From contig CAMEXM010000003.1 in the NCBI GenBank assembly GCA_945947155.1, positions 1 to 61,652 of the forward strand: a DNA stretch of 61,652 nt. Reading direction: 5' to 3'. A program made the position numbers and the translations under genes. How positions within the stretch are numbered: the first letter of the stretch is position 1; every line of letters begins with the position of its first letter. This document shows positions 43,211-44,770 of the stretch, one piece after another. The notes beneath the pieces are model-generated. The model had not been told where the DNA came from and did no database searches. It saw only the letters and a program-made list of their open reading frames with translations. Origin of the DNA: Polynucleobacter meluiroseus (GTDB lineage: Bacteria; Pseudomonadota; Gammaproteobacteria; Burkholderiales; Burkholderiaceae).

Positions 43211-43639
43211 TTAGATCTCGAGCACTTTAGGCTGTTGAGCCGTATGCGGATGAGTAGCGTCGCCGTAGACTTTCAATTTCTTGATCATGGCGTAGCCGAG
43301 TGGGCCTTTAGGCAACATACCCTTCACAGCCTTCTCGAGTGCGCGACCAGGAAAGCGGTCTTGCATCTTATCGAAGTTGGTCGAGCTAATACCGCCAGGG
43401 TATCCGCTGTGACGGTAATAAATTTTGTTCAAGCCTTTGGTGCCAGTGACACGCAGCTTAGATGAATTGATAACGACAATGAAGTCGCCCGTATCAACGT
43501 GGGGGGTGAATTCAGGTTTGTGCTTGCCGCGTAAACGGTGTGCCACTTCACTGGCGACACGACCGAGGACTTTGTCCGTAGCGTCAATCACGAACCAATC
43601 ACGCTTCACCTCATGGGATTTTGCGGAAAAAGTTTTCAT
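43211..43639 (-). CDS. rplM: 50S ribosomal protein L13
   Basis: [48 protein letters not shown]. Confidence 0.98.
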
Positions 43640-43788
43640 GATTTTCTCAAATTGTTATAGTCAAAAAATTACCTTCAATTCAATCATTCGCCCTTTGGCC
43701 CTGCTTATGGTTGCAGGCTCGCAGATTGATCAATTAAACTGACACAACAACTACCGCTGACTAGATCGGTAATTTAGTAAAGCCTTAA

Positions 43789-43794
43789 ATTGTA
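43789..43794 (-). promoter_or_regulatory. candidate -10 element of rplM-rpsI promoter
   Basis: TACAAT on the minus strand, about 150 bp before the rplM start; no strong -35. Confidence 0.45.
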
Positions 43795-43798
43795 ACCC

Positions 43799-43824
43799 AA
43801 AAAAACCCAGGAACGAGTCCTGGG
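43799..43824 (-). terminator. intrinsic terminator of the candidate sRNA
   Basis: Minus strand CCCAGGA-CTCGT-TCCTGGG followed by seven T. Confidence 0.75.
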
Positions 43825-43868
43825 CTGGAATCCACCGATGTTTGGGTGGAGGAGACAATTGCAGGCAA
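43799..43868 (-). ncRNA. candidate small RNA with CUCCUCC (anti-SD-like) segment and intrinsic terminator
   Basis: Minus strand: ...GCAATTGTCTCCTCCACCCAAACATCGGTGGATTCCAGCCCAGGACTCGTTCCTGGGTTTTTTT; CCACC/GGTGG hairpin; 7-bp terminator stem plus T7; upstream TTGACG. The 5' end is approximate. Confidence 0.55.
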
Positions 43869-44023
43869 CTGATCAATGTATGTTACATAACCTGCCGTCA
43901 ATAGGGTTATTTTATTCATAATTATGTTGCAATGCAAGAAATCTTTTTAGTAGCGTAGTTATCATAATTTTAATCGTAAATAATTGTTTATATTAACTAA
44001 TTTTGAAGTAAGGATTCACTAAT

Positions 44024-44446
44024 ATGGAATGCAAAGTCACTTGGCAAGGCGCTGGAACCATGGCCTTTACTGCCGAAACCGGCAGTGGCCACCAGCTTCA
44101 AATGGATGGCCCACCCGATGCAGGAGGCAAAAATGGGGCTGCGCGGCCCATGGAATTACTCCTCGCCGGTACTGGCGGGTGCTCGGCGTTTGACGTAGTT
44201 TTAATCCTCCAGCGGGCCAGACAGGCAGTAAGCGGGTGCGAAGTAGCTTTAACGGCAGAGCGAGCTGAAGTCGAGCCCAAGGTCTTTACCAAAATTAATC
44301 TGCACTTCACCGTCAAAGGGAAGGACTTGGATCCGGGCAAAGTCTCTCGAGCCGTGCAGCTTTCCCATGAAAAATACTGCTCTGCCACCACCATGCTCGC
44401 CAAAATGGCTGAAATTACTTACAGCATTGATGTTGTAGCGGAGTAA
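44024..44446 (+). CDS. OsmC family protein (YhfA-like)
   Basis: GAARPMELLLAGTGGCSAFDVVLILQ; KYCSATTMLAK. Confidence 0.92.
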   Translation: MECKVTWQGAGTMAFTAETGSGHQLQMDGPPDAGGKNGAARPMELLLAGTGGCSAFDVVLILQRARQAVSGCEVALTAERAEVEPKVFTKINLHFTVKGKDLDPGKVSRAVQLSHEKYCSATTMLAKMAEITYSIDVVAE

Positions 44447-44463
44447 GCAGCAAAAGCGAAAGT

Positions 44464-44770
44464 GCAGAGTCAATCGATAAGCCGGATTCTGTCGCCCAAA
44501 CTCGCGTTTGGGGGCAACCATTCCTCTAGGCCGACAGTTACCTGGCGGCTCAAGCTCCCTACCCGCAGACTCAGCGGGCCGCCTCATCGTCTGCTTACTT
44601 GGGATTGCTCCGGGTGGAGGTTACCGCGTTTCACCGTAACTAAATACGCTCGTCTCTGTGGCCCTATTCCGCACGTCACCGTGGATGGCTGTTAGCCAAC
44701 ACCCTGCCCTATGGAGTCCGGACTTTCCTCCCCTTTCTTGCGAAAGCGGCGATTGCCTAATTGACTCTGC
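44464..44770 (-). ncRNA. rnpB: RNase P RNA, bacterial class A
   Basis: Minus strand GCAGAGTCAATTAGGCAATCGCCGC...GGGGAGGAAAGTCCGGACTCC...ACAGAATCCGGCTTATCGATTGACTCTGC; matching P1 ends. Confidence 0.95.

Follow-up and report, generated by a model that had tools for sequence, protein, structure and literature searches.

The gap between rplM and an osmC-family gene in Polynucleobacter meluiroseus very probably encodes a single-copy, trans-acting small RNA (sRNA) of the family RF02278 (Betaproteobacteria toxic sRNA, or double-hairpin RNA), which would be the counterpart of B. cenocepacia ncS27, be processed from a longer precursor and block the Shine-Dalgarno (SD) sequences of uptake and catabolic genes. 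All coordinates below refer to the window, that is, the whole 61,652-nt stretch of DNA that we analysed. Family membership, the seed and hairpins, the position beside osmC and the complementarity to ribosome-binding sites (RBSs) were obtained by sequence comparison; transcription, processing, Hfq assistance and pairing we infer.

The gene rplM (ribosomal protein L13; ORF at 43211–43639, minus strand) is the downstream neighbour and lies outside the sRNA. The divergent neighbour, at 44024–44446 on the plus strand, belongs to the osmC family (NCBIfam NF008009, OsmC family protein), and its linkage to the sRNA is conserved. The start codons of the two genes are separated by 384 bp (43640–44023), in agreement with a sequence-only reading of this DNA. 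Just beyond osmC, the RNase P RNA was detected at 44462–44768 on the minus strand (RF00010, 240 bits). On the minus strand of the gap, TGTCTCCTCC is followed by a CCACC/GGTGG hairpin, CCCAGGA-N5-TCCTGGG and T7. The sequence TGTCTCCTCCACC begins at 43857, and its plus-strand counterpart GGAGGAGACA occupies 43848–43857. The same reading had described an anti-SD-like CUCCUCC segment, this hairpin and a strong terminator with T7 on the minus strand, and we found all of them. The anti-SD-like seed UGUCUCCUCC spans 43848–43857 (minus), and its final two C also fall within stem 1. Folds and loop comparison placed hairpin 1, with the loop CAAACATC, at 43830–43849 (minus). The intrinsic terminator hairpin and its T run occupy 43799–43826 (minus); a terminator scan called it at 43826–43804, and its stem covaries. 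Folding z-scores were −2.7 for a 91-nt form, with 1 of 200 shuffles equally stable, and −3.5 for the predicted 104-nt form, with none of 200. Predicted folds left most of the seed unpaired as far as the stem in the majority of relatives; when the window copy was folded as 104 nt, UGUC was partly paired.

When the 384-bp gap was scanned at Rfam's own cut-offs, no family matched. RF02278 aligned with 43857–43797 (minus) over its full length (model positions 1–64 of 64) at 45.6 bits, the Rfam gathering score being 50, with E = 3.5e-8 when the gap was searched and 5.7e-6 when the whole window was searched. This match defines the mature sRNA body (43797–43857, minus), which is conserved in genus relatives, and no other copy was found in this genome. 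Orthologs at the same locus exceeded the cut-off of 50, with 50.9 bits in G010, a close relative, and 52.8 bits in G024. The sequence-only reading had suggested that the RNA could belong to a toxic sRNA family described in Rfam for betaproteobacteria; the full-length match and the orthologs above the cut-off bear this out. Within the genus, 38 of 41 genomes carried a match, above the cut-off in 28, and all 36 good-quality genomes did so, G329 only weakly and at a different locus. Order-wide, a match was found in 188 of 300 genomes. The window copy combines an unpaired 5' UGUCUCCUCC with hairpin 1 and the terminator hairpin. A second CU-rich stretch is absent from its hairpin 1 loop; this stretch is not defining for RF02278, because many accepted members lack it. 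Two other families, anti-hemB (RF02837) and SorX (RF02784), likewise have two hairpins and unpaired CU-rich stretches, but we rejected them on scores far below their cut-offs (17.8 versus 49.5 bits and 17.1 versus 46.6 bits, respectively). The control genome of the alphaproteobacterium Caulobacter vibrioides gave an RF02278 match below the family cut-off (E ≤ 0.01), which is either a chance match or a similarly designed CU-rich sRNA.

A second, weak RF02278-like element (27–30 bits) with the 5' sequence UUGUCUCCUCGGUACC was observed in five Polynucleobacter genomes (G006, G326, G324, G329 and G005; L223–L227, around positions 1476–1597). It follows a phasin-like gene, shares its strand and faces lpdA; in G329 it was the sole match found. 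It may be an sRNA derived from a 3' UTR, with an almost identical seed.

The TTGACG noted by the sequence-only reading is present at 43901–43896 (minus), but it is probably not the promoter, as most relatives read TTGG there. We set it aside as a −35 element because it is not conserved and the pair TTGCAT (43937–43932) and TAAAAT (43914–43909), separated by 17 nt on the minus strand, is better conserved. This pair is the more likely promoter (predicted at 43909–43937); its type and its distance to the seed are conserved in the genus, but only 8 of its 12 positions agree with the consensus. From a predicted start near 43902, an RNA of about 104 nt would be made, including a 5' leader (43858–43902, minus) with an additional hairpin. 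Folds placed a hairpin just 5' of the seed in most genus leaders despite their differing sequences. The form of about 60–70 nt is probably a processing product of this precursor. In B. pertussis, the S17 precursor also has a TTGCAT −35 element with a 17-bp spacer, and an RNase E cut yields a 67-nt form starting near the seed (PMC11722255). The separate minus-strand sRNA of about 70 nt that had been proposed for this gap looks independent, but its primary transcript is probably the longer one.

We propose that transcription from TTGCAT-N17-TAAAAT would give the precursor of about 104 nt, from which cleavage, probably due to RNase E, would release a form of about 60 nt with the seed UGUCUCCUCC at its 5' end. 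Hfq would assist through the U-rich tail. The upstream promoter, the leader hairpin and the U tail form an anatomy consistent with both Hfq and RNase E. The seed would then pair with GGAGGAGAC-type SD sequences and prevent periplasmic substrate-binding proteins and enzymes for secondary carbon sources from being translated. By covering these RBSs, the sRNA would probably make the cell take up and degrade less of its secondary food sources. For S17, which shares the seed region, repression by SD pairing is documented by compensatory mutations (PMC11722255), and among the genes raised in the S17 mutant were 32 transporter-related genes or operons.

To find candidate targets, we searched for exact complements of the seed. 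This genome contains three copies of GGAGGAGAC: one within the sRNA gene, one at a place with no suitable nearby start codon, and one in the RBS of gcl, GGAGGAGACatcATG. The full GGAGGAGACA site was found at only one gene start, that of gcl (glyoxylate carboligase). The duplex between this site and the sRNA was predicted at −18.5 kcal/mol; random 36-mers from the window reached −13.8 kcal/mol at the 0.1% level. The gcl site was exact in only one other (G010) of ten genus genomes with gcl, and varied in the rest. The 15 TctC genes of this genome have weak sites at best. The clearest candidate target in this genome is gcl.

Across the 41 genus genomes, we examined 61 distinct GGAGGAGAC-N2-10-ATG sites, and 55 of them are followed by an ORF of 100 aa or more. 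These ORFs comprise 25 TctC-type receptors, 10 FAD-binding subunits of molybdopterin dehydrogenases and 9 Peripla_BP_6 receptors; an amino acid permease, molybdopterin oxidoreductases, gcl and a gluconolactonase-like gene are among the remainder. Genus genomes carry from 3 to at least 56 TctC genes, so the TctC share of perfect sites is well above the frequency of TctC genes. A rearranged control motif, GGAGGACAG, gave 18 sites in the genus genomes and none at a credible gene start; the enrichment rests on this one control motif and on orthologs that are not independent. By sequence, most perfect GGAGGAGAC RBSs in the genus belong to genes for substrate-binding proteins and catabolic enzymes, and this candidate target set agrees with those of S17 and ncS27. 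Of the GGAG(G)AGACAA-type SD regions suggested earlier as targets, ones that match the seed perfectly occur at RBSs of genes in the genus, but in this genome gcl alone has one.

The sRNA could be a functional family member whose main action is to inhibit growth globally, through a general anti-SD effect on ribosomes rather than on a defined set of mRNAs. The family owes its name to the toxicity of its members as clones in E. coli (PMC4603805), overexpression of ncS27 slows growth (PMC5688073), and CUCCUCC resembles the anti-SD sequence of 16S rRNA. We consider this improbable, however. The invariant seed is longer than the anti-SD, with UGU 5' of CUCCUCC, and perfect sites cluster ahead of uptake genes. 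Moreover, overexpression of S17 barely affects the growth of E. coli and S17 targets defined genes (PMC11722255).

The chromosomal position of the sRNA supports its identity. Among the matches listed for Burkholderiales, a divergent osmC lay directly upstream in 133 of the 168 copies examined, 64 copies were followed by rplM in the same orientation, and no copy had osmC in any other arrangement; these 168 copies are a sample obtained partly by an exact-pattern search, and not all of them are independent. In four large genomes of the same family, one examined copy each sits between osmC and rplM, and so does a Caballeronia copy. In B. cenocepacia, ncS27 is recorded opposite both of its neighbours, BCAL3348a and BCAL3349 (PMC4603805), and BCAL3348 is a ribosomal protein gene (PMC5688073). 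Because the osmC–rplM position is shared and the recorded neighbours and orientation of ncS27 fit it, the window RNA is most likely the ortholog, or positional counterpart, of ncS27; the position in B. cenocepacia is deduced from the gene numbers and orientation in these papers, with BCAL3349 as the presumed osmC.

The element also precedes rplM on its strand and has a terminator at its end, as would a cis-acting leader or attenuator of the rplM-rpsI operon whose terminator decides rplM transcription. We rejected this reading on synteny, most copies keeping osmC and not rplM, and regard it as very improbable. Among the matches listed, osmC was present without a nearby rplM in 73 copies, and for 32 of 95 copies the next downstream ORF, crudely assigned, had the opposite orientation. 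The large same-family genomes carry several copies elsewhere. A conserved TACAAT-like box directly after the terminator (43785–43800, minus) is expected of rplM's own promoter; it is probably the −10 element, and the sRNA terminator would abut that promoter. In B. cenocepacia, ncS27 forms a distinct RNA that stops at its terminator, and BCAL3348 has a short 5' UTR of its own (PMC5688073). Within the 5' UTR of rplM itself, we observed a block, GCGAGCYTGCAANCATAAGCNGRGCCAA (43690–43730, minus), with a CCTGC/GCAGG-type hairpin. This block is nearly invariant in the genus, lies about 55 nt ahead of the rplM start and matched no family in an Rfam search; it may be an L13-binding leader.

Conservation distinguished the sRNA from its surroundings. 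Named Polynucleobacter records share the locus, and in a P. meluiroseus record rplM is identical and osmC has 96% identity. Both TGTCTCCTCCAC and the seed were unchanged in 32 of 32 genus sequences, 10 of which were retrieved with a seed-containing pattern, leaving an independent count of 22 from BLAST of the whole gap. Mean identity of genus relatives to the window copy was 92% in the RNA body, 96% in the seed and 48% in the leader immediately upstream. The conservation check proposed with the sequence-only reading thus came out in its favour: the seed and both hairpins are kept in close relatives, and the flanks are not. Together, the folding z-scores, the RF02278 E-value and the conservation of the body over the leader indicate that the sRNA signal exceeds chance. 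Among 139 distinct Burkholderiales copies, the terminator arms were diverse yet complementary, with 94 distinct 5' arms among 135 stems, and in paralogs of the large same-family genomes a C-G pair of stem 1 was changed to T-A on both sides. We tallied covariation per stem because the alignment shifts one terminator arm by one base in some rows. Another DNA match common to many relatives (query 200–237; L023, L025–L031) was discarded as a look-alike terminator by a cold-shock-type gene. CUCC or UCCUC was found in the hairpin 1 loop of 107 of the 139 distinct copies and, within the genus, of 4 of 16; most copies outside crown Polynucleobacter carry this second CU-rich stretch. Sequence comparison indicates that it was lost in crown Polynucleobacter, the window included, with CUCC kept by some genus members. 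The score below the cut-off, this loss of the second loop seed and the very few exact target sites in the genome might suggest a decaying relic whose expression or regulation is gone, but this is the least probable of the alternatives, since the seed and both hairpins are intact and conserved above the flanks, nearly all good genus genomes have matches, and the promoter type and leader hairpin persist.

We then compared the sRNA with known systems. It shares with ncS27 of B. cenocepacia J2315 the family RF02278, the seed type and the two hairpins (PMC4603805, PMC5688073). The longer form of ncS27 is processed (PMC4603805, PMC5688073), whereas that of the window sRNA is only predicted, and B. 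cenocepacia has four copies, compared with one in this genome. The osmC–rplM copies of the large same-family genomes carry the second CU-rich loop stretch, unlike the window copy. S17/S17S of B. pertussis resembles the window sRNA in its seed region, its similarly short length and its TTGCAT −35 element with a 17-bp spacer, as well as in its hairpin leader, the CU-rich seed between stems and a transporter-rich target set (PMC11722255). In contrast, S17 is flanked by a glycosyltransferase gene and coq7, its precursor measures 190 nt rather than the predicted 104 nt or so, and its processing, Hfq dependence and targets have been shown, whereas those of the window sRNA are predicted. In Herbaspirillum seropedicae, the same family is represented by Hsnc059, Hsnc063, Hsnc086 and Hsnc107, which are expressed there according to RNA-seq (PMC7011215); that genome thus has four RF02278 copies, unlike this one.

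The family itself has already been described, and the Polynucleobacter copy is apparently unreported. In the accessible parts of the RF02278 literature, no mention was found of the linkage to osmC, of the lost second seed or of the targets listed for the genus; Kimelman et al. (2012) or Sass et al. (2019) may have mentioned them earlier. The literature searched contained nothing on Polynucleobacter in combination with sRNA and Hfq.

Polynucleobacter is a common freshwater genus, and to our knowledge small RNA regulation in freshwater bacterioplankton seems little studied. The present analysis adds to this genus a testable sRNA tied to a conserved chromosomal position, and it names a few candidate targets with perfect seed matches: receptors of the TctC and LivK types, molybdenum-flavoprotein dehydrogenases and gcl. 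It suggests that the label 'toxic' hides an ordinary regulator of nutrient uptake. More tentatively, as a possibility that we raise rather than favour, the osmC-linked copy may be the ancestral Burkholderiales member, which in small-genome Polynucleobacter became a single-seed variant that mainly sets the levels of TctC/LivK-type receptors. If this is true, the sRNA would be a means of carbon-uptake control in freshwater bacterioplankton.
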